NCBI GenBank assembly: GCA_015654795.1
Contig: JAATGF010000032.1
Span: forward strand, 1 to 49,120
DNA from: Bacteroidales bacterium
Lineage (GTDB): Bacteria; Bacteroidota; Bacteroidia; Bacteroidales; Prolixibacteraceae
Direction: 5' to 3'
DNA length: 49,120 nt
Shown piece by piece: positions 3,405 to 47,457 of the stretch. The notes under the pieces were generated by a model. That model ran no database searches and was not told the DNA's origin. It saw only the letters and a list, made by a program, of their open reading frames with translations. Each line of letters starts with the position of its first letter. Position 1 is the stretch's first letter. The position numbers and the translations under genes were made by a program.

Positions 3405-3460
3405 TTATAACATTTTACTGGATTCATGTAAAACATTTGAAAATTGGTTCTTTATTTTTG
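3405..3460 (+). promoter_or_regulatory. Stress-type promoter with 21-bp direct repeat (site 1)
   Basis: Hexamers TTATAA (3405-3410) and ATGTAA (3426-3431) lie 21 bp apart, with TTT at 3414-3416 between them. A perfect TAnnTTTG box (TATTTTTG, 3453-3460) begins 18 bp after the 30-bp element. It precedes the SDR gene by about 50 bp. It is one of six matching arrangements in the window. Confidence 0.65.
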
Positions 3461-3511
3461 TATCCTATTCAATTCTATATTGTAAACATTTAGTAAAGAA
3501 TTCAGTTAGCC

Positions 3512-4363
3512 ATGAACGAAAAACCAAAAAATATTCCTGATCAGTCACAGCAAAGACCGGGATTTGAAGAGAAAATGCACCCACAGCCAGAAGTGATCAG
3601 ACAAGACTATAAAGGCAGTGACAGACTTAAAAAGAAAGTTGCATTAATAACCGGAGGTGATTCCGGCATTGGAAGATCAATTGCCGTACATTTTGCACGG
3701 GAAGGCGCTGATATATCCATTGTTTATCTTAAAGAGGATGAAGACGCGTTGAAAACCAAAGAACTTGTAGAAGCGGAAGGCAAACGTTGTCTGATTATCG
3801 CGGGGAATATAAAGGATGAGAAATTTTGTGATAAAGCGATTGAAAAGACGGCCAAAGAACTTGGCGCAATCAACATTCTTGTCAACAATGCAGCCGAGCA
3901 GCATGAAGCTGATAATCTTGAAGAACCGGATCTTTCATTAATGCAGGAAAGTTTTAAAACCAATGTATTTGGTATGTTTTATATTATCCCAAAGGCATTA
4001 CCATATATGAAAGAAGGCGATTCGATTATTAATACTACCAGTGTTACTTCTTACCGGGGTAGCGCTCATTTGATCGACTATTCATCAACAAAAGGGGCAA
4101 TTACCTCTTTTACGCGTTCTTTAAGCATAAATCTTGCGGATCGGAAAATCAGGGTTAACGGAGTTGCTCCCGGCCCAATATGGACACCACTCATTCCTTC
4201 CACTCTGGATAATGTTTCTGAATTTGGCAAGAAAACTGCTCTCGGAAGGCCAGGCCAACCAAGCGAAGTGGGTCCGGCATATGTGTTTCTTGCGTCTGAG
4301 GATGCAAGTTATATTACAGGTCATGTTCTCCATATCAATGGCGGAGATTTTGTCAGTTCGTAG
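3512..4363 (+). CDS. SDR family oxidoreductase (YghA/YhdF-like)
   Basis: An NAD(P)-dependent short-chain dehydrogenase of 283 residues. Cofactor motif TGGDSGIG lies at 47-54, NNAA at 125-128, catalytic Ser near 177 and the Tyr190/Lys194 pair (YSSTK). The ~40-residue N-terminal extension rich in Pro and Gln (QSQQRPGFEEKMHPQPE) marks the YghA/YhdF/GsiB-neighbour type, which in many bacteria is induced by general, osmotic or desiccation stress; the substrate is not established by sequence. It heads the stress island and has its own promoter with the 21-bp repeat element. Downstream, CCGAAA/TTTCGG at about 4397-4420 forms a weak hairpin. Confidence 0.92.
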   Translation: MNEKPKNIPDQSQQRPGFEEKMHPQPEVIRQDYKGSDRLKKKVALITGGDSGIGRSIAVHFAREGADISIVYLKEDEDALKTKELVEAEGKRCLIIAGNIKDEKFCDKAIEKTAKELGAINILVNNAAEQHEADNLEEPDLSLMQESFKTNVFGMFYIIPKALPYMKEGDSIINTTSVTSYRGSAHLIDYSSTKGAITSFTRSLSINLADRKIRVNGVAPGPIWTPLIPSTLDNVSEFGKKTALGRPGQPSEVGPAYVFLASEDASYITGHVLHINGGDFVSS

Positions 4364-4472
4364 GAAACGTTCCTCCTTCGATGAAAAAAGCTTACCCCGA
4401 AAGTACCGATGATATTTCGGCATAAAGCACTTTATATTAACGTATAAAATTGTATTAAAACATAAATAATCA

Positions 4473-4655
4473 ATGAAAAGAATTTCTAATATACATAGAG
4501 GGCTCCTTCTTCTTTTACTATATTCAGTTGTAACTTCATGTGATGTTATAACCGGAATATTTAAAGCAGGAATGGGATTCGGGATTTTTATTGTAGTGGC
4601 AATTATTATTGGCATAGCATTTTTAATATTTCGTATTACCGGAAATAAAAAGTAA
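4473..4655 (+). CDS. Small lipoprotein with one membrane helix
   Basis: A 60-residue protein. A hydrophobic signal at about 10-22 ends in a lipobox-like VVTSC (Cys23), so it is probably lipid-anchored. A second strongly hydrophobic stretch at about 32-55 (glycine- and isoleucine-rich) could span the membrane, followed by a basic end GNKK. I do not recognise a named family; small membrane peptides of this form are frequent in Bacteroidota stress clusters. It lies 109 bp after the SDR gene on the same strand and could share its transcript. Confidence 0.7.
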   Translation: MKRISNIHRGLLLLLLYSVVTSCDVITGIFKAGMGFGIFIVVAIIIGIAFLIFRITGNKK

Positions 4656-4739
4656 CAATAAAGCCTTCGCTATTATATAAACCCACCTTATTTTAAATGA
4701 CATAAAGCATTTTGAAAATGCAAACAGATTGTGGAATTG

Positions 4740-4796
4740 ATGTAAACCTTTTCTGAAATTGTATAAAGCATCTCATCCCGGCTGTATCTATCTTTG
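4740..4796 (+). promoter_or_regulatory. Stress-type promoter with 21-bp direct repeat (site 2)
   Basis: Hexamers ATGTAA (4740-4745) and GTATAA (4761-4766) are 21 bp apart; TATCTTTG (4789-4796) is a perfect -7 box 19 bp after the element. It precedes the YciF-like gene by about 105 bp. Confidence 0.7.
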
Positions 4797-4901
4797 AACT
4801 GTAAATATTATAATTGTGAATGCGATAAGCATAGCCTTTTATATATTTATATTTCACCTCGGAAGTAAAAACAGTATAAATCAGAATTAAAAAACAAAGT
4901 T

Positions 4902-5465
4902 ATGGAAACAAACATTTATTCGAATGATCCGCAATCATCCAGAGATGCAGTAATGCGTTCCACTCAACTGATGAGTTTATTTGGAGATGGATTGAGAGAT
5001 ATTTTGGGGGCAGAGAAAGCAATAATAAAATCACTTCCCAGGATGGTTGAAAATGCAACGTCGAAGGAGCTCAGTGATGCCTTACAAAATCATCTTGAAG
5101 AAACGAAAAATCAGGTCAACCGTTTAATGCAAATATTCGATGTGACAGGAATAAACGGATCGGCAAAAGAGTGTGAAGCAATGGAAGGACTGATCAAAGA
5201 AGCCGAAGAAATAATGGATAACTGTGAAGTTGGATCAATGCGTGATGCGGGTATAATTTCAGCTGCTCAGAAAATTGAGCATTACGAAATTGCTTCGTAC
5301 GGGACTCTTCGCCAATTTGCAGAAACACTTGATATGGAAGATGTAGCTGTCTTGTTGAATCAAACGCTTGAAGAAGAAAAAGCTGCAGATGAAGAATTAT
5401 CGGCGATTGCAACTACAACTATCAATATTGAAGCCGCCAATACAAAAAATGGGGATATAAATTGA
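4902..5465 (+). CDS. YciF-like (DUF892) ferritin-fold protein
   Basis: A 187-residue, mostly helical protein of the DUF892/YciE-YciF family, whose crystal structures show a ferritin-like four-helix bundle. The hallmark start of the domain is at about 24-40 (LFGDGLRDILGAEKAI). Acidic and His residues that could bind metal are spread over the helices: E38 region, E81-E82, the AQKIEHYEIASY segment near 124-135, and the EEEKAADEEL segment near 160-170. The family is induced by osmotic and other stresses in enterobacteria; its biochemical job is unclear. It has its own promoter with the 21-bp repeat element and is closed by a good terminator. Confidence 0.9.
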   Translation: METNIYSNDPQSSRDAVMRSTQLMSLFGDGLRDILGAEKAIIKSLPRMVENATSKELSDALQNHLEETKNQVNRLMQIFDVTGINGSAKECEAMEGLIKEAEEIMDNCEVGSMRDAGIISAAQKIEHYEIASYGTLRQFAETLDMEDVAVLLNQTLEEEKAADEELSAIATTTINIEAANTKNGDIN

Positions 5466-5483
5466 TGCTGAAATCGCAAATGA

Positions 5484-5519
5484 AAAAAAGCGTGATTAAC
5501 TGAATGACTGCGCTTTTTT
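5484..5519 (+). terminator. Intrinsic terminator after the YciF-like gene
   Basis: Arms AAAAAAGCG and CGCTTTTTT flank an 18-nt loop; the T-run lies within the right arm. It starts about 20 bp after the stop codon. Confidence 0.7.
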
Positions 5520-5604
5520 AGGCTCTATGACTGGACTCCAAGGTAATCATTTGGTACGTAAATATTTAGAGATTATTTTGTTTAATTCTTAAAAACACTT
5601 TATC

Positions 5605-5790
5605 ATGGCAAAGTATTCGAAAAAATCGCAGGATAAAATTGGCGAAGTAATGAAAGAATTTAAAGAAGGAACTTTGAAATCAGGGAAAGATGGCAAAGGT
5701 GGTAAGGTAAAAAACCGGAAACAGGCCATTGCTATCGGAATTAGTGAAGCCCGGGAGGCAGGAGGAAAAGTACCATCAAAGAAAAAATAA
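5605..5790 (+). CDS. DUF6496 small basic protein
   Basis: A 61-residue Lys/Gly-rich protein. The body KIGEVMKEFKEGTLKSG and the end RKQAIAIGISEAREAG match the small conserved family known as DUF6496, often found near stress or DNA-repair genes; no function is established. The pattern of an amphipathic helix, a flexible GKDGKGGK linker and a second helix suggests a nucleic-acid or membrane contact, but that is inference. A short hairpin (GTAAGGT/ACCTTAC) sits just after the stop. I see no copy of the 21-bp repeat operator in front of it. Confidence 0.82.
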   Translation: MAKYSKKSQDKIGEVMKEFKEGTLKSGKDGKGGKVKNRKQAIAIGISEAREAGGKVPSKKK

Positions 5791-5911
5791 GTAAGGTTAC
5801 AGTACCTTACTCAAACTTATACAAATCCATATGAAAGGATGAGGAGGTAATGAACATAGAAGAAGAGGAATGGTTACAATTTAATCATTCACTCTTCTTT
5901 CTGTTTTTGAC

Positions 5912-6167
5912 TTATGATTTTCCCTCAATGATCTTTTTGATGTTTACTCCTTTGCCCAGCACGGGTTTCCATAAATCACCCTTCTTTTTAACCCGTACAA
6001 GTATATTTTTAATTGTAAATTGTTGGGGGAAAAGATTTTCGTTTACTTCGCTCCATTCCAAAGGAGTTGAAACTGTTGCGCCTTGTTTGGGCCTTACAGA
6101 ATAAGGCGCAGCGAGTGTTTGTCCGATCCTGTTTTGAAGGAAGTCAATATAAACGCGGTGTTGCCGC
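5912..6167 (-). pseudogene. ligD: 3' remnant of ligD (ligase D polymerase domain)
   Basis: Read on the minus strand, this stretch encodes an open frame that matches the C-terminal end of the LigD polymerase (primase-like) domain very closely. From its start it runs RQHRVYIDFLQNRIGQTLAA, then PYSVRPKQGATVSTPLEW and the end KKGDLWKPVLGKGVNIKKI before a TAA at 5912-5914. These are among the most conserved blocks of that domain. An in-frame TAG at 6168-6170 lies directly before it and no homologous sequence is seen further upstream, so about 85 codons of an originally far longer gene remain. LigD works with Ku in non-homologous end joining. This remnant cannot be functional, because the catalytic parts of the polymerase and the ligase and nuclease domains are missing. 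Confidence 0.82.
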
Positions 6168-6170
6168 TAT

Positions 6171-6467
6171 TGCAGGGATTATTAACCAAGATTCCGCATA
6201 GTCGGAAACAGAACACATTGTCGATTAGATAAAACGTCCATATAGATTCTCCAAACTACACGTTATAGTGCCATTTAGATGAATGATTTCAGATTTCAAC
6301 ATAGGACATTGTATTACTCACGTTCCTTAAGCTGATGAGATGGTTTCTGTACTAATACCAAAGAGGAAGTTACTTACCGATCCTAAAAACAGGATGTCAT
6401 CGTTTTGATATCAGTACATATTATCCTTATAATATGGTAATTAGTACTTTTTCTCGTATGGAAATTA
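6171..6467. other. Intergenic region, nothing recognised
   Basis: Between the ligD remnant and the next promoter I see only many stop codons in all frames. It may be decayed coding sequence, but I could not match it to a family. Confidence 0.4.
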
Positions 6468-6524
6468 TATAACAGTTTCCTATAATGATGTAATGCTTAA
6501 CCATTCAGCCGGCCATACATTTGC
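6468..6524 (+). promoter_or_regulatory. Stress-type promoter with 21-bp direct repeat (site 3)
   Basis: Hexamers ATATAA (6468-6473) and ATGTAA (6489-6494) are 21 bp apart with CAGTTTC after the first; TACATTTG (6517-6524) is a perfect -7 box 19 bp after the element. It precedes a 55-codon gene by 24 bp. Confidence 0.72.
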
Positions 6525-6548
6525 TATGTAAACTTTAAAATTAAAAAA

Positions 6549-6716
6549 ATGAAAGAAGACGAAAAAGGCCGTGAAAGTCAGGAAGACCAAAGACGCCAGC
6601 AGGATCAAAGAACTCACGAAACAAAAGGTAGAAGTGAGTCCTCATCACAAAAAACATCAAAAAGTGGAACCTCTAAGAGTGGTGGAAAATCCCAGGGGAG
6701 TTCGCGTAAAAGTTAA
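6549..6716 (+). CDS. Very hydrophilic 55-residue Ser/Lys/Gln-rich protein
   Basis: A short frame starting at an ATG 24 bp after a strong -7 box and ending at TAA. The product has almost no hydrophobic residues: the first half is Glu/Gln/Arg-rich (QEDQRRQQDQRTHETKG) and the second is a Ser/Lys/Gly repeat (SKSGTSKSGGKSQGSSRKS). It is predicted to be disordered, like hydrophilins or small desiccation proteins; I know no named family. Evidence that it is real is the well-placed promoter with the shared 21-bp direct repeat, a clean frame and a hairpin 15 bp after the stop. Confidence 0.7.
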   Translation: MKEDEKGRESQEDQRRQQDQRTHETKGRSESSSQKTSKSGTSKSGGKSQGSSRKS

Positions 6717-6730
6717 TTGATATTTGAAAT

Positions 6731-6793
6731 GATAAGGGCGTTTACCAGCGATTCCAACCGGAAGATTGGGCATCAAGGTAAATGCCCTTTATC
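6731..6793 (+). terminator. Hairpin after the 55-codon gene
   Basis: GATAAGGGCGTTTACC (6731-6746) pairs with GGTAAATGCCCTTTATC (6777-6793), with one bulge and one mismatch, around a 30-nt loop. There is no strong T-run, so termination is uncertain. Confidence 0.4.
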
Positions 6794-6854
6794 GTGCCAA
6801 TAAAGATATAAAAGTCGGATTATTTGGATTATTTATATTTACACACCGCCGGTA

Positions 6855-7034
6855 ATGAACTATGGAGGCATTCCAGGAATGTTTTTATCCCTTCCGATCA
6901 TTGCAATTGCAAAACTAATTTTTGATCATATACAAGTTTTGCAGCCATGGGGTTTTCTTTTAGGTGATACGATGCCAGATGAACAGAAATCTCAATCGGC
7001 CCTACCTAAAGACGAGAACCAGAACAGTCAGTAA
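6855..7034 (+). pseudogene. 3' remnant of an AI-2E/PerM-type transporter
   Basis: A 59-codon frame whose product begins MNYGGIPGMFLSLPIIAIAK and continues with LIFDHIQVLQPWGFLLGD. This is the C-terminal signature of the AI-2E transporter family (PerM/TqsA, normally ~350 residues with about eight membrane helices): the G-I-P-G-M-F/I-L loop, the last helix, and the FDH...P.GFLLGD end. It closes with a polar tail ending NQNSQ. The upstream helices are absent, and the bases before the ATG have no matching frame. I read it as the tail of a deleted gene. Whether the short frame is still translated is unknown. Confidence 0.78.
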
Positions 7035-7055
7035 TATAGGAAAATGATGAGAATT

Positions 7056-7112
7056 ATATAACACTTTCATGCAATAATGTAATGTTTTTAGGCTTAAGGG
7101 CACGTATTTTTG
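7056..7112 (+). promoter_or_regulatory. Stress-type promoter with 21-bp direct repeat (site 4)
   Basis: Hexamers ATATAA (7056-7061) and ATGTAA (7077-7082) lie 21 bp apart with CACTTTC after the first; TATTTTTG (7105-7112) is a perfect -7 box 19 bp after the element. It precedes the acidic-protein gene by 27 bp. Confidence 0.72.
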
Positions 7113-7139
7113 ATTTACAAACTTTAAAACTTTTAAAAG

Positions 7140-7526
7140 ATGAAAGAATATATCGAAGACCAGGAAATTTCCCGCAATAGAGAATATACTGAAGACACAG
7201 GTATTGACACTGATAGTAATGATCCAGAATATAGCAGAAATGCTCCCGAGGGTGTTAATCCGGATGCCTACATCCCATCGCATGAAGACGATGATGAAAT
7301 TGAAGATGATATCGATGATCTTGAGAATGAAGATGATGAAGATTTGGATCAAAATTTCAATAATGCTATCGATGAGGATGATACCGAAAAGAATCAACCG
7401 GGTGAACAAAATGACACACCGCGGCGGGAGGAACAAACAGATATTCCAATTGAATTCCCAGACAGGGGACACGAGCACGACTATAAAATACCGGAAGCCG
7501 ATCACAATCAAGGGTTAGATATTTAA
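7140..7526 (+). CDS. Highly acidic small protein
   Basis: A 128-residue protein without signal peptide or membrane segment. It is extremely acidic: residues about 50-84 are a run of Asp/Glu (HEDDDEIEDDIDDLENEDDE), and the ends are polar with Asn, Pro and Gln. No named family is recognised. The composition suggests a disordered cytoplasmic protein that could bind cations or basic partners; this is inference. It has its own promoter with the shared 21-bp repeat. The opposite-strand frame over the same bases (Ile/Phe-rich) is only the mirror of the Asp/Glu codons. Confidence 0.8.
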   Translation: MKEYIEDQEISRNREYTEDTGIDTDSNDPEYSRNAPEGVNPDAYIPSHEDDDEIEDDIDDLENEDDEDLDQNFNNAIDEDDTEKNQPGEQNDTPRREEQTDIPIEFPDRGHEHDYKIPEADHNQGLDI

Positions 7527-7609
7527 GGAACAAAAAGATTCTTAACGTATCGGGTTGTTATCAATCAGAGAATTATGGTTTAAATTTTAATAACTTAAAA
7601 ATAAACATC

Positions 7610-7828
7610 ATGTATAATGTAAAGAAAGAGTTAATCATGGGACTAACAAGTGTCCTTGTTAGCGTACTGATCGGGATATTATTTTCGAGGAAAAACTCGC
7701 TAAAGAAAATTGCCAGGAAGGCAAATGACAAATTCGAAGATATGAAGGAGGATGCTTCTGATTATGCTGAGAACCTGAAGCATAAAGCGAAAAAAGGTAA
7801 GCAGCGCTTTAAAACGGCGAATGAATAA
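7610..7828 (+). CDS. YtxH-like small membrane protein
   Basis: A 72-residue protein with a single hydrophobic helix at about 9-26 (LIMGLTSVLVSVLIGILFS) followed by a strongly charged, probably coiled-coil tail (KANDKFEDMKEDASDYAENL). This layout is typical of YtxH-type stress proteins, which are membrane-anchored with a cytoplasmic amphipathic helix. The exact family cannot be fixed by eye. It lies 83 bp after the acidic-protein gene and 54 bp before the outer-membrane barrel gene on the same strand. Confidence 0.75.
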   Translation: MYNVKKELIMGLTSVLVSVLIGILFSRKNSLKKIARKANDKFEDMKEDASDYAENLKHKAKKGKQRFKTANE

Positions 7829-7882
7829 ATGAGTTTAAATAAAATTCAATGGGAGCCCACTTTTTAACAGAAAATTAATGGT

Positions 7883-8527
7883 ATGAAAAAATCATTTTTG
7901 ACATTGATCTTCGTGACAGTCGTACTGTCCGTAATTGCCCAATCACCATTCACTCTTGGGATTAAAGGCAGTATAAATTCCAGTAAAATCACTACTGAAA
8001 ATCCTTCAGTCAGTGATTACACCTACTCCGATTTCAAATCGGATACGAAAGCAGGTTTTAATGTTGGTGCTTTTGCCCGATTAGGGAATAAAATCTATTT
8101 ACAACCTGAATTACTGTATTGCCAGCGAAATGGTAAGACCAGCTTTATGTCGCCAACCAATACAACTGGCAGTCAGACTATTGAATTAAGGACAATCCAG
8201 GTGCCGGTTTTATTAGGCGTTAAAGTTGTTAACCTGCAACTTGTCTCCATACATGCCTTTACCGGGCCGGCTATGTCATTTGTTCTTTCCAGCAGTGATA
8301 TAAAAATAGACGATGTTACAACTCCTTTGTTTGATACAAAAAACTATAAAAATAACATTTGGGACTGGCAGGCAGGAGCGGGAGTTGATATCGGTATGTT
8401 TACCTTCGATGTCCGTTATGAATGGGGACTTACCAATGTTTCAGACGGAGATGGAGATATTAGTAATGTTGGTTTCAAAAATAAAGGGAATATGTTAACC
8501 TTTTCACTTGGCTTCAAGTTCTTGTAA
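7883..8527 (+). CDS. Outer-membrane beta-barrel protein (PorT-like)
   Basis: A 214-residue secreted protein. The signal peptide is residues 1-19 (cut after IAQ). The mature part alternates polar and hydrophobic residues as in a small beta-barrel, with FTLGIKGSIN at the start, GFNVGAFARLGNKIYLQPELLY in the middle, and a final aromatic strand LTFSLGFKFL. This is the OMP_b-brl/PorT-like family, very common in Bacteroidota; role in the outer membrane unknown. The gene lies inside the stress island and has no clear promoter of its own, so it may be read from upstream. Confidence 0.88.
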   Translation: MKKSFLTLIFVTVVLSVIAQSPFTLGIKGSINSSKITTENPSVSDYTYSDFKSDTKAGFNVGAFARLGNKIYLQPELLYCQRNGKTSFMSPTNTTGSQTIELRTIQVPVLLGVKVVNLQLVSIHAFTGPAMSFVLSSSDIKIDDVTTPLFDTKNYKNNIWDWQAGAGVDIGMFTFDVRYEWGLTNVSDGDGDISNVGFKNKGNMLTFSLGFKFL

Positions 8528-8605
8528 TCTAAAATTATTCTAACCTTCGGACCTTTATGATTGAAAATTATTTAATAATAAAAGAATAATTTAAAAAGTA
8601 AAATC

Positions 8606-8893: not shown

Positions 8894-8970
8894 AGTCATT
8901 CTTCCCGGATCCGCAAAAAAGAGAAATTAATCTATTCGTAGAAAAAATGTGTGATTACGACAAACGATAG

Positions 8971-11962: not shown

Positions 11963-12490
11963 TTAATTCAATTTGCTGTCAATTAGATTTTTAAGTTCTG
12001 TGAAATGATCTTCTTCGAATCCTAAGGAAAGGTAAATGATTTTTCCATGCTCATCGATCAAAAAACTTCGGGGAATTCCTTCGGAAGCAAACAAACTAAA
12101 AACTTTTCGTTTAAGATCGGGAAGAAGTGGAAAGCTAAAGTTTTGATCTTTTCCAAATTTGGTGACCTCCTCCCACGAATGTTCGCGTCCAAACGTGAGC
12201 ATCGCAAACTTGGGATTATCTTTATGCTTGTTCCAGATTTGTTCCTGAACCAGTGGTAATTCCCGTCTGCAGGGAGCGCACCACGTTGCAAAGAAATTAA
12301 TAAGAACAATTTTTCCTTTGTAATCATTAAAAGAGACTACCTTTCCCTTTGTAATCTCGAATTTGAACAAAGGAGCACTCTGATCTTTAGCTAATAATAT
12401 GAATTTGTCTGTCTCATTTGCTGCTTGTCCGAAAACAACACCACCCGCAAATATCAAAGCAATAAAAAGAAATAGTTTCGTTTGTGTCAT
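11963..12490 (-). CDS. TlpA/ResA-like thiol-disulfide oxidoreductase
   Basis: A 175-residue exported thioredoxin-fold protein. The signal peptide covers about 1-21. The active site is WCAPC with Cys71 and Cys74, and the cis-Pro loop is EGIPRSFLID near 145-154. Such proteins reduce disulfides in the periplasm, for example in cytochrome c maturation or in the repair of oxidised proteins; the partner here is unknown. It lies 28 bp after purC on the same strand and is probably the last gene of a phoH-purC-tlpA unit. Confidence 0.9.
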   Translation of the reverse strand: MTQTKLFLFIALIFAGGVVFGQAANETDKFILLAKDQSAPLFKFEITKGKVVSFNDYKGKIVLINFFATWCAPCRRELPLVQEQIWNKHKDNPKFAMLTFGREHSWEEVTKFGKDQNFSFPLLPDLKRKVFSLFASEGIPRSFLIDEHGKIIYLSLGFEEDHFTELKNLIDSKLN

Positions 12491-12518
12491 ATTAAAAATG
12501 ATTTAGAAGTAAATGACT

Positions 12519-13469
12519 TTAACTTTCCTTTGTCATGAAATGCTCTATATTATTTTTGATTCGCATAGTGGCATTGGCTAAATCGCCCTTTACAAATTTA
12601 TCACCGGTGATATTTTCAAAAAGTTCAATATACCTTTCGGAAATCTGATCGACAAGATCATCAGTCATTTCAGGAACAGTTTGTCCTTCAAGTCCCTGAA
12701 AACCATTTTCAATCAGCCATTGACGGACAAACTCTTTCGACAATTGCTTCTGAAGTTCTCCTTTGGCCAGACGGTCTTCGTATCCTTCAGCATAAAAATA
12801 ACGGGATGAATCGGGCGTATGAATCTCATCGATCAGGTAGATTTTGTCATCCTTTTTTCCGAACTCATATTTTGTATCCACAAGGATCAATCCTTTCTCT
12901 GCAGCCATGCTTGTGCCCCGTTCAAATAGCGAATAGGTATATTTTTCAAGCATTTCATACTCTTCGGCAGATACAAGTCCTTGTTTAATAATCTCTTCAC
13001 GCGAAATGTCCTCATCATGCCCTTCGGATGCCTTAGTCGTCGGCGTAATGATTGGCGAAGGGAATATCTGGCTCTCCTTCATACCTTCAGGCATGGGAAC
13101 TCCGCATAACAATCTGTTTCCGTCGCGATACTGGCGCCATGCGTGACCTGTCAAATAGCCTCTGATCACCATCTCAACTTTGAAGGGTTCACATAAATGA
13201 CCGACTGTAACCATCGGATCAGGAGTCGCAATTTTCCAGTTAGGCACAATGTCGGCAGTCGCATCGAGAAATTTAGCCGCTATCTGATTTAGAACCTGTC
13301 CTTTAAATGGAATTCCTTTGGGTAAAACAACATCAAAGGCCGAGATCCTGTCAGATACGATCATCACGAGGTATTCGTCGTTGATATTGTAAACATCTCT
13401 TACTTTCCCTTTATAGAAACTCTTTTGTCCGGGAAACGAAAAATTGGTAGAAACTATTGCATCACTCAT
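12519..13469 (-). CDS. purC: Phosphoribosylaminoimidazole-succinocarboxamide synthase
   Basis: SAICAR synthase, which joins aspartate to CAIR with ATP in step 8 of de novo purine synthesis (cytoplasm). Its 316 residues fit the longer, yeast-like form. Recognisable blocks are [20 protein letters not shown] (22-41), [49 protein letters not shown], and [11 protein letters not shown] with [14 protein letters not shown]. All active-site regions look intact. It sits 22 bp after phoH and 28 bp before the tlpA-like gene, likely one transcript. Confidence 0.97.
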
Positions 13470-15400: not shown

Positions 15401-16844
15401 CAATGTCATATACTTAAGCGTTATATAGCTCTTTTATAGTTTGTTAAAGTCTGGTATTTACCGTTTAATCGCTTCACTTTCTTTTTTCGAGGGTTCCGTC
15501 TTCCAGGCCTTACTGGTTCGAGATTCCGTTCAAAGTCTTTTTGCAGTTGCAAAAGTATTTGTTCAGGATTCTTGTCTAAGAACAGTTTGACTATGCAGTG
15601 TTTCATTGAAGCCCAACTTACATTTCGGTTTATTTTGTATTTATATGTCCGTTTTCTATTTACCTGATCCAGGTAATCTTCACATTGTTTCTCTATCAGG
15701 CTTTGCAGGTTGGCCACAAACAAGCCAGCAGCATAATCTTGTTGGATGCAGATTACCCTGTGCCCACTGAATTGCTCCATTTGTAGTTGGTTTTTCTGCT
15801 TGCCGTAGGTAGTTTCTATTCCCCAACGAAGTCCATACAAATACTTTAGGTCTTCATTTGTGTACAAGTTTTGATCATACAGGTTCGTCAGCAGTATTTC
15901 TACCTCACCGCTACTTAGCAGTACTTTCACCATCCGCACTTTTATGGTTGTCTCTGGTGTAATAACATACCCATGTTCCCGCAGCGTTGCTATTGCATTT
16001 GCGTTTGGCTTCAGGTTAATGATCTTACTATTTTTGCTGCTTTGCACAAATTGCTTCACCTCTTTATTGAATCCAACCTTACAACGTATCACAAAGTGAC
16101 GGGGGACCTCCTGGTTGTTCATCAGGTACATCAGGGCATAGCCCGGATAATTGCGATCAAAAAGAGTTAGGCTGTCTTCGTATAATCGACTCACCTGCCT
16201 GGCCATTATCGCCTGTTCGGATTCTTTAATGGAACTGATTTGCCCCCAGACGGTGATGTCATTCAGAATGTCTTGCACCTGCATGATTCTTGCCATCGGT
16301 ATACACACATGTTGGTTGTCCTGAGTACCAAAATAGTCAGCCACTTCTTTTTTATTGATCAAATAGGCCGTTGATCCATCTACTGCCTGTACCCGGAAGT
16401 TGCGCCGGCGTTTTACATTATCTCCATAATAATGATAAAAATTGCTTACCAACCACTGGTTCCACGCTTCAAAGAATAAGGCTTTTAGCTTTGACCTTTG
16501 TGAACAGAAAGCTCCCTTTGTACAATGTACAAAATCTTTTTCCAAACTTTCAAAAAACTCTTGTATCTCAATGCTCAAACTTCGCTTTGGCATATTAATG
16601 ATAAGTCCTACAATACGTTCCATGGGCAGTTTCCTGTCTCGTGTAAAATCTTTTTCCGTTTCTGTTACCAGTTCCCGTAACGATGGGTCTTTGGATACAA
16701 CCTCTAAAAAATATTTTAGTTCCTCTATTATTCTTACATTTGCTCCTACCATTGAGTTTTGTATTTAGTCACTACAAAGAACGGTAGTAATACTGTTCGT
16801 AACTCAATGGTTTTTTACTTTTTTCCCTTAACTATATGACATTG
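15401..16844 (-). mobile_element. IS4-family insertion sequence, 1,444 bp, complete
   Basis: The ends are 18-bp terminal inverted repeats, CAATGTCATATACTTAAG at 15401-15418 and its complement with one mismatch at 16827-16844. They are flanked by a perfect 10-bp direct repeat GAATAAGGGG at 15391-15400 and 16845-16854. The 10-bp duplication, single DDE transposase and size fit the IS4 family. The unaltered target duplication and open transposase frame point to a recent, possibly active copy. It landed in the repeat block after mazG and breaks no gene. Confidence 0.93.
15421..16752 (-). CDS. IS4-family DDE transposase
   Basis: A 443-residue transposase that cuts and pastes the surrounding element. 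The catalytic triad is visible: Asp125 in AVDGSTAYL, Asp199 in LFDRNYPGY and Glu313 in YGLRWGIETTYGKQK. The last one contains the IS4 signature Y-x2-R-x3-E-x6-K exactly (Y306, R309, E313, K320). The N-terminal part (about 1-115) is helical and should bind the ends; the C-terminus is very basic (RRNPRKKKVKR). The stop codon lies 2 bp inside the left inverted repeat. No frameshift or internal stop. Confidence 0.95.
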   Translation of the reverse strand: MVGANVRIIEELKYFLEVVSKDPSLRELVTETEKDFTRDRKLPMERIVGLIINMPKRSLSIEIQEFFESLEKDFVHCTKGAFCSQRSKLKALFFEAWNQWLVSNFYHYYGDNVKRRRNFRVQAVDGSTAYLINKKEVADYFGTQDNQHVCIPMARIMQVQDILNDITVWGQISSIKESEQAIMARQVSRLYEDSLTLFDRNYPGYALMYLMNNQEVPRHFVIRCKVGFNKEVKQFVQSSKNSKIINLKPNANAIATLREHGYVITPETTIKVRMVKVLLSSGEVEILLTNLYDQNLYTNEDLKYLYGLRWGIETTYGKQKNQLQMEQFSGHRVICIQQDYAAGLFVANLQSLIEKQCEDYLDQVNRKRTYKYKINRNVSWASMKHCIVKLFLDKNPEQILLQLQKDFERNLEPVRPGRRNPRKKKVKRLNGKYQTLTNYKRAI

Positions 16845-39831: not shown

Positions 39832-39844
39832 ACCAAGACTCGAT

Positions 39845-42345: not shown

Positions 42346-42401
42346 ACGGTTAAACTATGTCATGCACAGCACGATTGCATGAACCATAAAATTATTACAT
42401 G

Positions 42402-42443
42402 AAGCGTTGAATCATACAAAATTATGATTCAACGCTTTTTTTT
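42402..42443 (+). terminator. Terminator after the YugP-like gene
   Basis: AAGCGTTGAATCAT (42402-42415) and ATGATTCAACGCTT (42424-42437) pair perfectly over 14 bp, followed by T. Confidence 0.9.
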
Positions 42444-42519
42444 AAATAGCTGAGAAACAATATTTTGTCAGGGGTGCCTAAATTTTGTGTGAAATTGTAA
42501 TAATTTTTTAATAAGTGCA

Positions 42520-42552
42520 TTGATTTTTATTGGAATTTTATGTATAAATTTG
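42520..42552 (+). promoter_or_regulatory. Promoter of the T9SS cargo gene
   Basis: TTG at 42520-42522 and TAAATTTG (perfect -7 form) at 42545-42552, 22 bp apart; 77 bp before the ATG. Confidence 0.5.
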
Positions 42553-42629
42553 GGTTTTAAAAGCTGTATTTAATAGCAACATCAAAAAAACTCAAATCAG
42601 ATCATCGTCACTCACACTCCTAAAATAAC

Positions 42630-44495
42630 ATGAAACATCTTTCCTTTTGCAATTGGACAGAGAAGATTAAATATCAAACCGACACTCATCGCCAGCTCTT
42701 CTGCCCGAACTTTCCGACCTTGCGGAAAATAGGAAATTCAATACTTTTTACCATAATTCTGTTTGGATTGGGACAAGTTTGTTTTGGACAAAATTATGTT
42801 GATTATAGAAGTTTAAAAACTGGCTATTTTGGTTCTAGATCTTCTTGGGAAACATACAATGGAAGTACGTGGATTTCTGCATCGAGTGCGCCTAGTAATG
42901 ATAATATCAATACGATTACCATTTTAAATGGCCACAAAATTACTATCGACACCTCTCCCGAAATATATAGTTTAACAGTTAACTCAGGGGGTGAATTAAC
43001 TTATTTGGGGGGATTTACTTGCACAATTACTTCTAACCTTACAATTAATGGACGAGTAACAGTTGTACCAGGTGCAGTTCTTAAGGTAGAGGGCACTACC
43101 GCTTTAGGCGGTTCAGAATGTTTACTAATTCAATCAAATTCTGACGATCGTAGTGGATCATTAATTTCTGGATCATTTACAGGCTCTGGCACCATCAAGG
43201 TAGAGCGTTTTATGTCTAATACTGATGATTGGCATCTTTTTTCCTCCCCTGTTTTTCAGTCGTATCATGATTTTATATTAGGTAATCCTGAAATTCCTGA
43301 TTTATTTACTACACCAGTAGATGGTGATTACGTAGGAGTTGGTATGCGCGATTATAATACGGAATTAGATAGTTGGAATTCTTATTTTAATTATAGAACT
43401 AATACTCCTACTGGCAATATAGGAAATTGCAAAGGGTTCAGTATTCGCACGTTCAATGATCCTTTGGGCACGGGGTTTATTTATGCAACGGGAGCTCCCA
43501 ATAGTAGCTTAAGTATTCCATTGGTTACAACTGGTAATAAATGGAACTGTATTGGGAATCCTTTTACTTCAGGTTTAAGAGTGAGTTCCTTCATAAGTAT
43601 TAATTCCAGTTTGCTTGATCCATCGTTTGTTGCTGCCTATTTATGGGATAGTCAACTTAGTGCTTATGTTCCTTATAATAGCTCTTCAATTTCAAATATT
43701 CAGATGGGACAAGGATTCTTTGTCAAATCGAAATCGACAGGTGGTTTAATTAGTTTTAGTTCAGGCATGCAGGTAAATGAGCCGACTTTACCATTTAAAT
43801 CTGCTGAAATTGGGTGGCCTTTAGTTAAAATATCAATCAATAATCAAACTCTAAAAAGTTTTACAGAAATCAAATTTATACCTAATACAACCAACGGTTT
43901 AGATCCGGGTTACGATGCAGGAATGATGAAAGCGAATCCTGAATTTGCACTCTATTCCAAACTATTGGATGACAATGGAGTGGATTTTACTTTACAGTGC
44001 CTTCCCGATAAGGATTACGATCAGTATGTGATCCCGATTGGCCTCGATTGTAAAGTTGCCGGAAATATTACCTTTACAGCCGAAACTGTTAATTTGCCTT
44101 CAGGATGCCAGGCATTGCTTGAGGACCGGTTGACGAAACGGTTTACTCGCCTTGATCTTAAAGATGCAAAATACACTGCCACTGTAAGTGCTGATACGAA
44201 AGGAACAGGAAGATTCTACCTTCACACTGCTGATGTGATTAGTAGTACTCAACCGGTAGAAAATCAATTATTTAAAGTATATGAAACTGGTAAAACCATT
44301 TATATCAATGGTGAAGTAAGTGGAAATGCAAAGTTCTTTATCTATTCTGTTAACGGTAAACAACTGGCAAATTTTAATGCTACAAACCAGGTTCAGAACC
44401 AATTCGATGCTTCAGGATTACCGGCAGGTGTTTATATTTTAAATATTAATGATAAGAACCAAAATAAATCGGTTAAATTTGTAATTGAAAATTAA
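42630..44495 (+). CDS. Large T9SS-secreted surface protein
   Basis: A 621-residue exported protein. The N-terminus is long and polar (1-36), followed by a signal helix at about 37-53 ending FGQ. Residues about 55-190 look like repeated beta-strands (right-handed helix type: ITILNGHKITID, LTVNSGGELTYLGG, LTINGRVTVVPGAVLKVEG). The middle resembles surface proteins with Asn/Ser-rich strands. The C-terminal ~75 residues form a type IX sorting domain (FKVYETGKTIYINGEVSGNA, KFFIYSVNGKQLANFNA, LPAGVYILNINDKNQNKSVK), which directs secretion across the outer membrane and anchoring. Its ligand is unknown. Two short Tat-leader genes follow. Confidence 0.88.
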   Translation: MKHLSFCNWTEKIKYQTDTHRQLFCPNFPTLRKIGNSILFTIILFGLGQVCFGQNYVDYRSLKTGYFGSRSSWETYNGSTWISASSAPSNDNINTITILNGHKITIDTSPEIYSLTVNSGGELTYLGGFTCTITSNLTINGRVTVVPGAVLKVEGTTALGGSECLLIQSNSDDRSGSLISGSFTGSGTIKVERFMSNTDDWHLFSSPVFQSYHDFILGNPEIPDLFTTPVDGDYVGVGMRDYNTELDSWNSYFNYRTNTPTGNIGNCKGFSIRTFNDPLGTGFIYATGAPNSSLSIPLVTTGNKWNCIGNPFTSGLRVSSFISINSSLLDPSFVAAYLWDSQLSAYVPYNSSSISNIQMGQGFFVKSKSTGGLISFSSGMQVNEPTLPFKSAEIGWPLVKISINNQTLKSFTEIKFIPNTTNGLDPGYDAGMMKANPEFALYSKLLDDNGVDFTLQCLPDKDYDQYVIPIGLDCKVAGNITFTAETVNLPSGCQALLEDRLTKRFTRLDLKDAKYTATVSADTKGTGRFYLHTADVISSTQPVENQLFKVYETGKTIYINGEVSGNAKFFIYSVNGKQLANFNATNQVQNQFDASGLPAGVYILNINDKNQNKSVKFVIEN

Positions 44496-44506
44496 TTGGA
44501 ACTACC

Positions 44507-44752
44507 ATGAAAACAGAAGATTGCTCAAAATTAAACAAAATAAACCACGATAATTGTCGACCTGAAAATACCGAAAAACTGATGGGCAGGCGTGAGATTT
44601 TAAGTAAAGCCGGATGGTATGCCTTATCAACTGCAACAATGATGGTATTAATGAAAAGCCAACCAGCCAAGGCACAATCGCCGCAAATTAATATGCCTGC
44701 GCCAAATATTGCACCAAACACCGAGGTGTGGCGACGCACTACACGAAAATAG
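44507..44752 (+). CDS. Short Tat-leader protein (copy 1)
   Basis: An 81-residue protein, 11 bp after the T9SS cargo gene. The first ~25 residues are polar. Then comes a twin-arginine motif GRREILSKAG, a hydrophobic stretch (YALSTATMMVLMKS) and a possible cut after PAKA. Only about 24 residues remain: QSPQINMPAPNIAPNTEVWR and a basic end RTTRK. It is a paralogue of the product at 45070: shared leader RRE(I/V)L(S/T)KAG, ATMM, KSQPAK, and a shared C-terminal E-x-W-x-R-T motif. No family recognised. Mature peptide of unknown role, perhaps a partner of the neighbouring secreted protein. Confidence 0.7.
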   Translation: MKTEDCSKLNKINHDNCRPENTEKLMGRREILSKAGWYALSTATMMVLMKSQPAKAQSPQINMPAPNIAPNTEVWRRTTRK

Positions 44753-44776
44753 CCAAATAAGTACTAATCTTTTTTC

Positions 44777-44819
44777 ATAGCAATGCCTTGCAGTATATAA
44801 AGCTGCAAGGCATTGCTAT
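44777..44819 (+). terminator. Perfect 17-bp hairpin
   Basis: ATAGCAATGCCTTGCAG (44777-44793) pairs perfectly with CTGCAAGGCATTGCTAT (44803-44819) around a 9-nt loop. It follows the first Tat-leader gene by 24 bp. The T-run on the right is weak. Confidence 0.6.
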
Positions 44820-44876
44820 TTCTGCAGGATAAGTATCATTTATTTCTATCTCATTAAATAAAAACTTTCTGTTCGT

Positions 44877-44903
44877 AAAAAACATTTTTACAAATGTTTT
44901 TTT
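44877..44903 (+). terminator. AT-rich terminator-like hairpin
   Basis: AAAAAACATTT (44877-44887) and AAATGTTTTTT (44892-44902) pair perfectly around a 4-nt loop and run into further T. Confidence 0.55.
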
Positions 44904-44920
44904 GTTTGTAAAATAATTTA

Positions 44921-44928
44921 TACTTTTG
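44921..44928 (+). promoter_or_regulatory. -7 box of the second Tat-leader gene
   Basis: TACTTTTG matches TAnnTTTG; the leader RNA would be about 135 nt. It suggests separate control of the second copy. Confidence 0.45.
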
Positions 44929-45069
44929 ATAAAGTGTAAAATTTAACAGACTGCTATTTGTTCTTAATAAAATATTGCACTGATTTAATTTTCAAATTGC
45001 AAGAAAACGTAAAGATATTTTACGCATTGTTTTTGATAAATTACTAAATGTTCTAAAATTGATTTTATT

Positions 45070-45300
45070 ATGAACCTATATATGGAATCGAAAGAAATAA
45101 CGAGTGACCTAAATGAGGAAATGCTAAACAGGAGAGAAGTGCTCACAAAAGCAGGCTGTTTAACACTTTCTGCAGCAACAATGATGATTTTAATAAAAAG
45201 TCAGCCTGCAAAAGGTGCATCAACCAACGGTACCGGAGTGGTCAATCAATCTACTATGGCTAAACCAACCGATGAAACATGGGTGCGTACTGTACGCTAG
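45070..45300 (+). CDS. Short Tat-leader protein (copy 2)
   Basis: A 76-residue paralogue of the product at 44507. After a polar start (MNLYMESKEITSDLNEEM; the ATG at 45082 is an alternative start) come the twin arginine NRREVLTKAG, a hydrophobic stretch LTLSAATMMILIKS, QPAKG, and a ~28-residue mature part ending PTDETWVRTVR. The leader is more conserved than the middle, and the last ten residues again keep E-T-W-x-R-T. It has its own -7 box and a very strong terminator. Function unknown. Confidence 0.72.
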   Translation: MNLYMESKEITSDLNEEMLNRREVLTKAGCLTLSAATMMILIKSQPAKGASTNGTGVVNQSTMAKPTDETWVRTVR

Positions 45301-45323
45301 TAAAATATAACTGTACTTTAAGA

Positions 45324-45372
45324 AACAAGGGGAGTAAAAGAGAATTTATGGTTCTCTTTTACTCCCCTTGTT
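45324..45372. terminator. Two-way terminator, perfect 21-bp stem
   Basis: Arms at 45324-45344 and 45352-45372 pair without mismatch around a 7-nt loop (core GGGGAGTAAAAGAGAA). It separates the second Tat-leader gene from the convergent GH109-type gene. Confidence 0.88.
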
Positions 45373-45439
45373 ATTTTCTACTATTCAACTGAATGACAGG
45401 GGACTGTTCGTGATTTGGACAGTCAACCTGTCACTTTTT

Positions 45440-46885
45440 TTAAAACAGCGTATTTATATAATCGCGTTTGGGATCGATCGGGAATTGTGAATCGCGGGCA
45501 AAACCCGGATGACGTTTAATCCATTGTCCACGTGTGAAATCGGGAAAATCAACAAGCGCACCACCACGAGCTACTGACATCTCTGAAAGCGCAGAAACGG
45601 CGCTCCAGGCTGCGGCATCATAAGCATCCAAGGGAACCGGTTTTTTATTGCGTACCGCATCGTAAAAATCGTTGAGCATAATGAAATCCATACCTCCATG
45701 ACCTGCTCCCGTTGCCTTTTCCCCCTTTTCGCGCCAATACTGGTGATCGTACTTCTTTAACCAGTCTTCGGCTTTGTCCCATATATGGGGTTTGCTTTTC
45801 CCTTCTACATAAATCTGTTCCCCTGCATCCTGCCAATCGCCACCACCTTCACCTTTCCACAGGCCATTTGTTCCCTGCACACGGAAGCCCAATGAGTATG
45901 GGCGCGGCAGATTTGTATCGTGTGTAACGATAATCGTTTCGCCATTGGCACATTTAATCATTGATGTAACAATATCACCAAGATTAAAGTTAATATTGTG
46001 ATAGGGGTGATCTTTACTAACATGATCGTCAATAAATTTGCTCAATCCGCGTGCTTTTGTTGCCATGGCAGAAAGGGTTAGAAACCGATTACCACGATTG
46101 ATATCGAGATATACGCCAACAGGACCGAGTCCATGAGTAGGGTAGAGGTCGCCATTACGTCTGACAGCATGTAAGCCACGCCATTGTGCCTCTGAATGAG
46201 CTTCTTTACCAATTTTCAGACTATTGGTTTCCACATCGAATTTCACACCGCGCAAATCGTGTTCGTATCCGCAGCGACAATGGATCAACTCCCCGAACTG
46301 ATTTGTCCGAACCATATTGAGGATCGCCATTACATCACGCCGGTAGCAAACATTTTCGAGGATCATTACCTGATTTCCTGTCTGTTCGTGTACGTTTACC
46401 AAGTCCCAGCATTCCTCAATTGTATTGGCGGCTGATACTTCCACACCTGTGTATGGAACGCCCGCTTTCATCGAAGCAACGGCCATCGGAACATGCCATT
46501 CCCAGGGAGTTGCAATAATAACTGCATCAAGCGCTTCATTTTTAACCATATCTTCGTAAGCATGATCGCTTCCCGTATAGGCTTTAGGAGCTTTCATTCC
46601 GTTGTTTGCCACGATTTTTTGTACGTTGTCTATCGCCTCCTGGCTGATATCACAGATTGCGACAACTTCGATTCCCCCAACAGTTATTGAATCATGCACA
46701 TGGCCACTTCCGCGACCTCCAAGACCAATAAAACCAACCCTTACAATATTCGGGTCACGCTTTGCTGATTCCTTGGTTCTTTCCTTTTTTTGACCAAATG
46801 TTTCACTATTCGTTAGCGCCATTCCGGCAATGCCGATTCCGGCTACAGTTCCCATTTTCACAAAATCCCTGCGGTTTGTTTTCAT
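45440..46885 (-). CDS. Gfo/Idh/MocA-type glycosidase, GH109-like
   Basis: A 481-residue Tat-exported enzyme. The twin arginine NRRDFVKMG (4-12) opens a signal ending near SETFGQ. A Rossmann NAD fold follows with VGFIGLGGRGSGH (about 49-61) and VAICDIS. The later blocks VMILENVCYRRDVMAILNMV, CGYEHDLRG, YPTHGLGPVGVYLDI and THDTNLPRPYSLGF match the GH109 group. These enzymes cleave alpha-N-acetylgalactosamine by an NAD-dependent redox mechanism. Substrate specificity cannot be set by eye; other Gfo/Idh/MocA oxidoreductases are close. No glycan utilisation genes lie next to it. Confidence 0.88.
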   Translation of the reverse strand: MKTNRRDFVKMGTVAGIGIAGMALTNSETFGQKKERTKESAKRDPNIVRVGFIGLGGRGSGHVHDSITVGGIEVVAICDISQEAIDNVQKIVANNGMKAPKAYTGSDHAYEDMVKNEALDAVIIATPWEWHVPMAVASMKAGVPYTGVEVSAANTIEECWDLVNVHEQTGNQVMILENVCYRRDVMAILNMVRTNQFGELIHCRCGYEHDLRGVKFDVETNSLKIGKEAHSEAQWRGLHAVRRNGDLYPTHGLGPVGVYLDINRGNRFLTLSAMATKARGLSKFIDDHVSKDHPYHNINFNLGDIVTSMIKCANGETIIVTHDTNLPRPYSLGFRVQGTNGLWKGEGGGDWQDAGEQIYVEGKSKPHIWDKAEDWLKKYDHQYWREKGEKATGAGHGGMDFIMLNDFYDAVRNKKPVPLDAYDAAAWSAVSALSEMSVARGGALVDFPDFTRGQWIKRHPGFARDSQFPIDPKRDYINTLF

Positions 46886-47115
46886 TGAAATTCGAGTTTA
46901 GTTGTATTCCGTACCAGAAGAACTTAATGCTTCCAGATGATTGTTGTCCGATAAAAATTTTAAAAAATATAGTTCAGCGTTTCAGATTACTCTGCAGTTA
47001 TCTTTATCGAGACAAACTGCCGTAACGAATGGTAAAAGTACAAATTTTAGTGATAGCTGCTTTTTAAATCACGCATAAAATTCTTTAAGGAACACAATCC
47101 GGATATGAGTAAATA
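46886..47115. other. Intergenic region, nothing recognised
   Basis: Divergent region between the GH109-like gene and the stress promoter at 47116. No gene and no clear repeat. Confidence 0.5.
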
Positions 47116-47172
47116 ATATAAACTTTTCGCAGAATGATGTAATACTAAAGCACTCAAAGGTTCCGATATTTG
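47116..47172 (+). promoter_or_regulatory. Stress-type promoter with 21-bp direct repeat (site 5)
   Basis: Hexamers ATATAA (47116-47121) and ATGTAA (47137-47142) are 21 bp apart; GATATTTG (47165-47172) matches seven of eight positions of the -7 box, 19 bp after the element. It precedes the Lmo0937-like gene by 49 bp. Confidence 0.68.
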
Positions 47173-47221
47173 TTCCTGAAATTTATATATTTAATTATCA
47201 CACTTTTTAAAATTAATCATT

Positions 47222-47377
47222 ATGGGAAATTTACTTTACCTCATTGCCGTCATTCTCGTCATTGCATGGCTAATTGGCTTTATAGGTTATGGAACGGGAG
47301 GTATTATTCACATTTTATTAGTCATTGCTATTATCGCAGTGCTGATGCGAATTATACAAGGAAGAAGACCAGTCTGA
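47222..47377 (+). CDS. Lmo0937-like small membrane protein
   Basis: A 51-residue hydrophobic protein with two helices, MGNLLYLIAVILVIAWLIGF and the segment after the glycine turn GYGTGGIIH (ILLVIAIIAVLMRII), ending GRRPV. The GxxxGGxIHxLLVIAxI centre and the GRR end match the Lmo0937/DUF5670 family, which is induced by general stress in Listeria and widespread in Bacteroidota. Too short for most gene finders, but the promoter with the 21-bp repeat supports it. Confidence 0.85.
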   Translation: MGNLLYLIAVILVIAWLIGFIGYGTGGIIHILLVIAIIAVLMRIIQGRRPV

Positions 47378-47400
47378 ATTGTCGATGTAAAGTGGAAAAG

Positions 47401-47457
47401 ATGTAACAATTTCGGACAATTGTATAATGAATTTCAAAAAAATGAAGTTTAAATTTA
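47401..47457 (+). promoter_or_regulatory. Stress-type promoter with 21-bp direct repeat (site 6)
   Basis: Hexamers ATGTAA (47401-47406) and GTATAA (47422-47427) are 21 bp apart with CAATTTC after the first; TAAATTTA (47450-47457) fits seven of eight -7 positions, 19 bp after the element. It precedes the CsbD-like gene by 39 bp. Confidence 0.65.

Follow-up and report, generated by a model that had tools for sequence, protein, structure and literature searches.

A 21-bp direct-repeat promoter element in Bacteroidota and its linkage to a subfamily of AraC-type proteins

A 49,120-bp stretch of a Prolixibacteraceae genome (Bacteroidales bacterium, GenBank assembly GCA_015654795.1, contig JAATGF010000032.1), here called the window, carries six copies of a 34-bp element. 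Each copy is a direct repeat with a 21-bp period that stands before a gene and is followed at a fixed distance by a box resembling a -7 promoter element. Site 1 lies directly after a three-gene set (467-3329) encoding an AraC-type protein, a response regulator and a histidine kinase; the other sites precede genes that include YciF-like, Lmo0937-like and CsbD-like members. The features are as follows.

467-1039, +: AraC-type protein, proposed activator, with an unclassified N-terminal domain and an AraC DNA-binding domain
1094-1540, +: single-domain response regulator (PF00072 is the sole match over cut-off)
1557-3329, +: CHASE3-PAS-HisKA-HATPase histidine kinase
3400-3433, +: operator site 1 (putative), 21-bp direct repeat before the SDR gene; leave-one-out rank 1
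3453-3460, +: -7 box of site 1, TATTTTTG, at offset 19
3512-4363, +: SDR oxidoreductase (NF005214), putative target of site 1
4735-4768, +: operator site 2 (putative), before the DUF892/YciF gene; counterparts stand before YciF genes of genomes G009 and G003
4789-4796, +: -7 box of site 2, TATCTTTG
4902-5465, +: DUF892 (YciF-like) protein (PF05974), putative target of site 2
6462-6495, +: operator site 3 (putative), before a short open reading frame (ORF)
6516-6523, +: -7 box of site 3, TACATTTG
6549-6716, +: 55-aa Ser/Lys-rich ORF without a Pfam match, putative target of site 3
7051-7084, +: operator site 4 (putative), before an acidic ORF
7105-7112, +: -7 box of site 4, TATTTTTG
7140-7526, +: 128-aa acidic ORF without a Pfam match, putative target of site 4
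47111-47144, +: operator site 5 (putative), before the Lmo0937-like gene; counterparts stand before Lmo0937-like genes of G010 and G001
47165-47172, +: -7-like box of site 5, GATATTTG, one mismatch
47222-47377, +: Lmo0937-family membrane protein (NF033488, PF18919), putative target of site 5
47396-47429, +: operator site 6 (putative), before the CsbD gene
47450-47457, +: -7-like box of site 6, TAAATTTA, one mismatch; TAAATTTG in the counterpart on G009 C15
47497-47682, +: CsbD-like protein (PF05532), putative target of site 6

Six sites in the window and further copies in the same genome

Read directly in the window, the six sites align as ATRTAAMAnTTTCnnnnAATnRTRTAATG with an A-rich, AAT-like stretch on the 5' side, and the second ATRTAA-like hexamer follows the first by exactly 21 bp in every case. 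All six had been named in the original prediction, whose third start shifts from 6468 to 6467. The TAnnTTTG-like box begins 20 bp after the 29-bp element in sites 2-6 and 19 bp after it in site 1, which is the same placement as the 19 bp (18 in the first) earlier counted from a 30-bp element. Measured against promoters of the housekeeping sigma factor (ABfr), with start points predicted, the -7 box TAnnTTTG is perfect in four of the six sites and has a single mismatch in sites 5 and 6, and the TTTG at -33 is missing from five of the six: none lies within the 30 bp before the box in sites 2-6.

The 21-bp period stands out from the base composition. Five pairs of RTRTAA occur at this spacing on one strand of the window, and they are sites 2-6 (site 1 begins TTATAA); other spacings from 7 to 60 give a mean of 0.34 pairs and a maximum of 2, and spacing 21 in 60 Markov copies gives a mean of 0.28 and a maximum of 2. 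It is the sole favoured spacing in the window. When a matrix was built from five sites, the sixth always ranked first among non-training positions, scoring 20.9-30.5 against 13.4-17.4 for the best non-site over the whole window and both strands, and a seven-site matrix found just two further window positions at 11 or above (11.1 and 14.1). Because of the excess at spacing 21 and the leave-one-out ranking, the sites are not a chance alignment of AT-rich promoters.

Further copies were sought in the genome of the window, an assembly of 3.68 Mb in 180 contigs that is about 69% complete. A loose scan with up to three mismatches returned 177 matches against 196 for the control, and its matches are therefore uninformative noise; only those with zero or one mismatch were used, 10 in number (six of them the window sites) against 0 for the control. 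One of these, at C100:8073, is a seventh copy: it is intergenic, has a spacing of 20 to CATTTTTG, and precedes a 133-aa ORF and then a second ORF that we take to be AsmA-like from its appearance. Matches on contigs C86 and C46 were rejected as operators, both falling within ORFs. The match on C41 belongs to a second operator set, of the canonical ATGTAACT type, located on G000:C41 (L237) and G000:C121 (L238), where it precedes small, probably exported proteins and an AraC gene of a second clade described below. With a longer pattern, 13 sites were found in this genome (five on C72, one on C100, four on C41 and three on C121) against 0 for the control, window site 1 being absent among them. Contig C121 also carries an Lmo0937-like gene 88% identical to that of the window.

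Recurrence and promoter geometry in relatives

Related DNA was chosen by homology to the AraC protein and comprised 80 named Bacteroidota loci (1.45 Mb), the best 80 of at least 571 confirmed relatives. The scanning matrix was trained solely on the seven sites of the window's own genome, with the box outside the matrix. At a score of at least 18, the 80 loci contained 54 matches, compared with 1 for the reversed control and a mean of 1.3 (maximum 4) for ten permuted matrices; at 20 or above there were 36 matches, compared with 0 reversed and 0.2 permuted. Such a scan of relatives had been suggested in the original prediction, as had the placement of the box, and both bore it out. Among 75 matches scoring at least 16, a box with at most one mismatch stood at offset 20 in 43 and at offset 19 in 8, with 5 for the next commonest offset. 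The 51 matches with a box at offset 19 or 20 are 51 different sequences from 34 loci. Control matches, taken at score 10 where the real ones were taken at 16, had a box at these two offsets together in 5 of 130 and 6 of 98 cases (a recount of the reversed control gave 6 where 5 was used, probably through a match at a locus end). The box played no part in the matrix, which came from the window's own genome alone, so that the fixed geometry confirms the element independently. Two direct half-sites about 21 bp apart, the proximal one on or abutting the -35/-33 region at fixed spacing, are the form of an AraC/XylS-type operator; the window shows the repeat at exactly 21 bp in 6/6 sites, it recurs in relatives, and the spacing to the box is kept in 51/75 matches.

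Within the family, several of 140 Prolixibacteraceae genomes carry a sharper form of the operator, GAATnATGTAACTnTTTnnnnnAATTGTGTAAC. The longer pattern occurs 12, 39, 43, 23 and 18 times in G001, G002, G009, G010 and G036, against 0, 0, 0, 0 and 1 for the control, and 2, 5, 6, 14 and 5 times in five named genomes, against 0, 0, 2, 0 and 1.

At the level of the phylum, 392 genomes (the window's own included) were surveyed for sites at up to three mismatches. An excess of at least three sites over the control was found in 29 of 72 genomes with a strong match to the N-terminal part of the AraC protein (E of 1e-20 or below), in 7 of 113 with a weaker match and in 1 of 207 without a match. Summed sites and controls were 287 and 60 for the strong-match genomes, 97 and 52 for the weaker ones, and 51 and 36 for those without a match.

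AraC-type proteins, operator letters and putative target genes

The protein encoded at 467-1039 belongs to the AraC/XylS family, matching PF12833 (1.5e-14) and PF00165 (6.2e-6), both over cut-off, and its profile matches AraC-family DNA-binding domains in the PDB, among them YesN (9e-13), XylR, AraC and SoxS. Its N-terminal region of about 90 residues matches no Pfam family. A tree of 92 related proteins, built quickly and without bootstraps, splits cleanly into clade 1, which contains the window protein, and clade 2, which contains a paralog from the same genome encoded on C121; L160 (a partial gene) and L174 (a stop in the gene) lie outside the tree and were counted as clade 1. Across the 80 named loci, a relative of the response regulator is encoded within 3 kb of the AraC gene in 62/67 clade-1 and 1/13 clade-2 loci, and a relative of the histidine kinase in 58/67 and 3/13. 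Clade 1 is therefore a conserved set of AraC protein, response regulator and histidine kinase, with the receiver and the DNA-binding output on different proteins.

Linkage between sites and AraC genes was measured in G001 and G036, each a single contig, with full-length members of the AraC subfamily. Members lie within 20 kb of 6/12 sites in G001 (expected 0.17) and 14/18 in G036 (expected 0.42), within 40 kb of 11/12 (expected 0.34) and 16/18 (expected 0.79), and within 5 kb of 2 and 8. Other AraC-type genes lie within 20 kb of 0 and 1 sites (expected 1.1 and 2.3) and within 40 kb of 0 and 1 (expected 2.2 and 4.2) in G001 and G036; with linkage below expectation in both genomes, these proteins were rejected as binders. 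Pooled over the 30 sites, the 40-kb counts are 27 for the AraC subfamily (expected 1.1), 1 for other AraC genes and 11 for LytTR genes (expected 7). Sites cluster, 11 of the 12 in G001 falling in one 36-kb stretch that opens with a site starting 83 bp upstream of the AraC match; as such clusters do not count as independent events, the expectations serve as guides rather than probabilities. Elsewhere in the phylum, 15 of 137 sites, in 10 genomes, lie within 2 kb of a listed AraC-subfamily gene (expected 0.27); the 137 were taken from at least 150, excluding 10 from the window's own genome and 3 from G517 and with a second AraC gene of G397 missed, and most are not near a listed AraC gene, a part of them being noise at three mismatches. 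A site stands 48-57 bp before the AraC match in 8/30 family loci, against a permuted mean of 0.01. Separately, a gene fragment of the AraC subfamily at G001:C1:191598-191855, some 4 kb from the intact gene, lies just before an operator copy and an Lmo0937-like gene.

The letters of the operator differ with the clade of the AraC gene. Position 8 is A (giving ATA at positions 6-8 of the first half) in 44/56 clade-1 sites and 4/28 clade-2 sites (p = 2e-8, from sites that are not independent), and the two groups differ at positions 1, 13 and 22 as well. In the window's own genome, T at position 13 is found in 0/7 window-type and 7/7 C41/C121-type sites (p = 0.0006); positions 1 and 8 taken singly are not significant there (p = 0.07 each). 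One operator site stands just before the C121 AraC gene.

As to the genes behind the sites, the original prediction called all six window genes stress-type. Family membership is confirmed for DUF892/YciF, CsbD, Lmo0937-like and SDR; the 55-aa and 128-aa ORFs match no Pfam family. CsbD genes are present in 57/140 family genomes, and of 30 CsbD loci taken without regard to the motif, 12 have a site scoring at least 14 within 350 bp upstream (the window's own training site included), compared with a mean of 0.11, and never more than 2, for 200 permuted matrices and with 4 on the opposite strand. YciF was tried as a lineage marker and rejected, PF05974 being present in only 4/140 family genomes. 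Gene order repeats the window in part. A single contig of G009 carries the AraC, response regulator and kinase genes followed by a site, CsbD and a relative of the protein at 47771-48235, and on the same contig YciF and DUF6496 (adjoining SDR) are each preceded by a site. In G010 the three-gene set is followed by a site and then an Lmo0937-like gene, and G003 has sites before YciF, CsbD and DUF6496-SDR plus one after its three-gene set. Aligned regions upstream of CsbD (five sequences) and YciF (three) largely keep the operator and the box region.

Of 108 proteins behind accepted sites, 99 were scanned (eight AraC-subfamily proteins and L243:15042-16529 were left out, and some very short genes were missed). 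They include 9 AraC-type, 5 CsbD, 5 MlaE and 4 OmpA proteins, 3 each of DUF4142, DUF5670, DUF305 and OMP_b-brl, and 2 each of BON, SDR, YkuD, PAP2 and others, counts that are a description and not an enrichment; a ferritin-like gene (L082) also stands behind a site. With 74 families matched in all, the regulon appears broad. The stress label fails for some downstream genes: several Flavobacteriia sites precede small ORFs or another AraC gene. Hence "stress" suits the window's family and some others more than it does the phylum as a whole. At L120:13493-14512 and in similar Flavobacteriia, an operator about 3 kb from the AraC gene stands before an AraC-type gene of about 340 residues or an ORF of 46-48 residues, which could reflect a cascade of regulators or else a separate regulon. 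Two sigma-70-type genes of G036 (L255:13966-14823 and 12155-12670, minus strand) are each preceded by an operator copy, one encoding regions 1.2, 2, 3 and 4 and the other region 2 only; they are a possible second tier of the response.

Three other features of the window lie apart from these genes. An ORF remnant with internal stops at 5912-6232 (minus strand) is presumably the end of a LigD-type polymerase domain. Two small proteins (44507-44752, without a Pfam match, and 45070-45300) share an NRRE/GRRE...KAG...LKSQPAK-like stretch, and a DDE transposase gene (PF01609) lies at 15421-16752 (minus strand).

Proposed mechanism, alternatives and known systems

We consider it probable, at roughly 0.78, that the 34-bp element is an AraC/XylS-type activator operator bound by the AraC subfamily, with the protein at 467-1039 the likeliest binder in the window and under kinase control. 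The half-site GAATnRTRTAAY would be presented twice, exactly 21 bp or two helix turns apart, with the downstream half placed on the -33 region, which would otherwise be contacted by the housekeeping sigma factor, and the TAnnTTTG box at its fixed distance. A signal, perhaps a stress, would act on the kinase, and the response regulator and the AraC protein would relay it. In the window's clade the AraC gene is accompanied by genes for a response regulator and a CHASE3 kinase, and from this we infer that binding is kinase-signalled, the response regulator acting on the AraC protein. The latter would occupy both half-sites, probably as a pair, the lower one replacing the -33 contact, and would recruit RNA polymerase with the housekeeping sigma factor at the box. 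Its putative targets, several of which are of stress type, include CsbD, Lmo0937-like, YciF and SDR genes. As judged from sequence, the matrix scans, the geometry, the CsbD loci and the AraC linkage all favour the original view of a shared operator of activator-dependent promoters whose second half probably lies over -33.

Several observations weigh against this reading. Site 1 retains a TTTG at 3436-3439, 17 bp before its box, so that the absence of a -33 element first proposed for all six promoters holds for sites 2-6. The window's AraC gene has no site of its own (the best score in the 350 bp upstream is 4.7, with none at 11 or above), and 22/30 family AraC loci lack a score-18 site just upstream; with sites at only 8/30, autoregulation was rejected as a general rule. 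The window's AraC gene lies beside neither the sites 47 kb away nor the C100 site, and the contig of a third paralog in the same genome (C59) carries no site. In the first half, where clade 1 has ATATAA, sites 2 and 6 and the C100 copy read ATGTAA, and their assignment to the window's AraC protein therefore rests on position 13, linkage and synteny. No site of score 14 was found upstream of 18/30 CsbD loci, and 27/67 clade-1 loci have no accepted site within the locus DNA fetched, a share that is not independent of the geometry, since acceptance required a -7-like box at the fixed place. Finally, 21 of the 29 site-rich genomes with a strong AraC match belong to one genus and are therefore not 29 independent cases.

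Some of these points would fit an AraC-subfamily operator at which not the protein at 467-1039 but its C121 paralog, or both paralogs, would act on the six window promoters: the half-sites of the two operator types are alike, 3/7 own sites have the ATGTAA form, and the window's AraC gene has no site of its own. We think this unlikely, as position 13 separates the two types without overlap in this genome, sites near clade-1 genes elsewhere are mostly of the window form, and G009, G010 and G003 keep the clade-1 three-gene set together with the shared targets. That the AraC protein represses from these sites is quite improbable. The overlap of the downstream half with the -33 region could be read that way, but sites 2-6 have no TTTG in the 30 bp before the box, and a fixed placement upstream of the -10/-7 element is, in the parts of the AggR and MtlR studies available, the habit of AraC-type activators.

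Two further explanations would place another class of protein on the element. LytTR operators, such as those of AgrA and AlgR, are direct repeats about 21 bp apart, and LytTR linkage was tested because of this similar spacing. LytTR genes are common (14, 11, 15 and 35 in G000, G001, G010 and G036), and at a distance of up to 40 kb they accompany 10/18 G036 sites (expected 5.6) and 1 site in G001 (expected 1.4). At shorter range the linkage of a LytTR operator is not found: LytTR genes are within 20 kb of 0/12 G001 sites (expected 0.8) and 3/18 G036 sites (expected 3.1) and within 5 kb of 0 and 0, where the AraC subfamily has 6 and 14 and then 2 and 8. Two G036 LytTR genes adjoin AraC genes, and the operator letters track the AraC clades; binding by a LytTR-type response regulator is thus very unlikely. 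Finally, it is highly improbable that an alternative sigma factor recognizes the element and reads the second hexamer as a -35 element. The downstream box at a fixed distance would suit such a factor, and the two G036 sites before sigma-70-type genes could be taken to point the same way. A copy of the hexamer 21 bp upstream, however, is not a known feature of sigma promoters, and the sites cluster with the AraC subfamily. The box itself fits the Bacteroidota housekeeping -7 consensus, TAnnTTTG, published in PMC7366714 in the portion available.

If the element is an AraC-subfamily operator, a broader reading can be put forward tentatively, although we lean against it: in Bacteroidota the general stress response would have no master sigma factor dedicated to it, and an expanded AraC subfamily would act on 21-bp direct-repeat operators at housekeeping promoters. 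In one clade a histidine kinase would drive the AraC protein by way of a single-domain response regulator that is a protein of its own, and some species would have a sigma-70 paralog as a second tier. With the same reserve, such a response might switch on CsbD, YciF, BON, Lmo0937-like, ferritin-like, L,D-transpeptidase and other genes. In bacteria with sigma-B, RpoS or EcfG, the control of general stress genes has been described well; among the open-literature papers listed, none describes a master regulator for Bacteroidota. Judged by titles and the starts of abstracts, none of the listed papers describes such an operator, AraC-subfamily regulon or Bacteroidota general stress master, in keeping with the original statement that no operator of this form was known in the phylum. 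The kind of operator is known (AraC/XylS-type); the widespread regulon, its regulator and the split kinase-regulator-AraC arrangement are apparently undescribed. The fixed-geometry operator, the two paralogous codes and the candidate three-gene module would open stress control to experiment in genera that are in culture, among them Flavobacterium, Chryseobacterium, Emticicia and Arcicella, and in uncultured members the element predicts start points and regulon members from sequence.

Direct half-sites at 21 bp are found at araI1-I2 and for XylS at Pm. The window promoters resemble these AraC/XylS activator promoters in the AraC DNA-binding domain, in direct half-sites about two turns apart near or over -35, and in a fixed distance to the box. 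In the accessible portions of the sources, MtlR at PmtlE binds 15-bp blocks at -72 to -58 and -50 to -36, a site upstream of -35 (PMC4514859), and for AggR a site 22 bp from -10 is best for induction (PMC6392122). The window promoters differ from that group in having a Bacteroidota -7 box rather than a -10 box, half-site letters and an N-terminal domain of their own, a multi-gene regulon with stress-type genes and, in clade 1, linkage to a separate response regulator and kinase. Bacteroidota hybrid two-component systems are named in PMC7366714. Those with AraC-type output share with the present set a kinase, a receiver and an AraC DNA-binding domain as well as the phylum; in the present set each of the three is a protein of its own, and polysaccharide loci are not the targets. 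Promoter motif 2 (PM2) of B. thetaiotaomicron is likewise a Bacteroidota promoter motif tied to oxidative stress genes, but as described in the available sections of PMC7366714 it is near-palindromic and lies at -10/-30, and is not a 21-bp direct repeat upstream of TAnnTTTG. The putative targets recall the sigma-B, RpoS and EcfG general stress regulons, where CsbD-like genes recur; CsbD is named in papers on sigma-B. YciF-like genes, too, recur in general stress regulons of other phyla. In those regulons an alternative sigma factor is the master, whereas here an AraC-type operator stands on housekeeping-type promoters.

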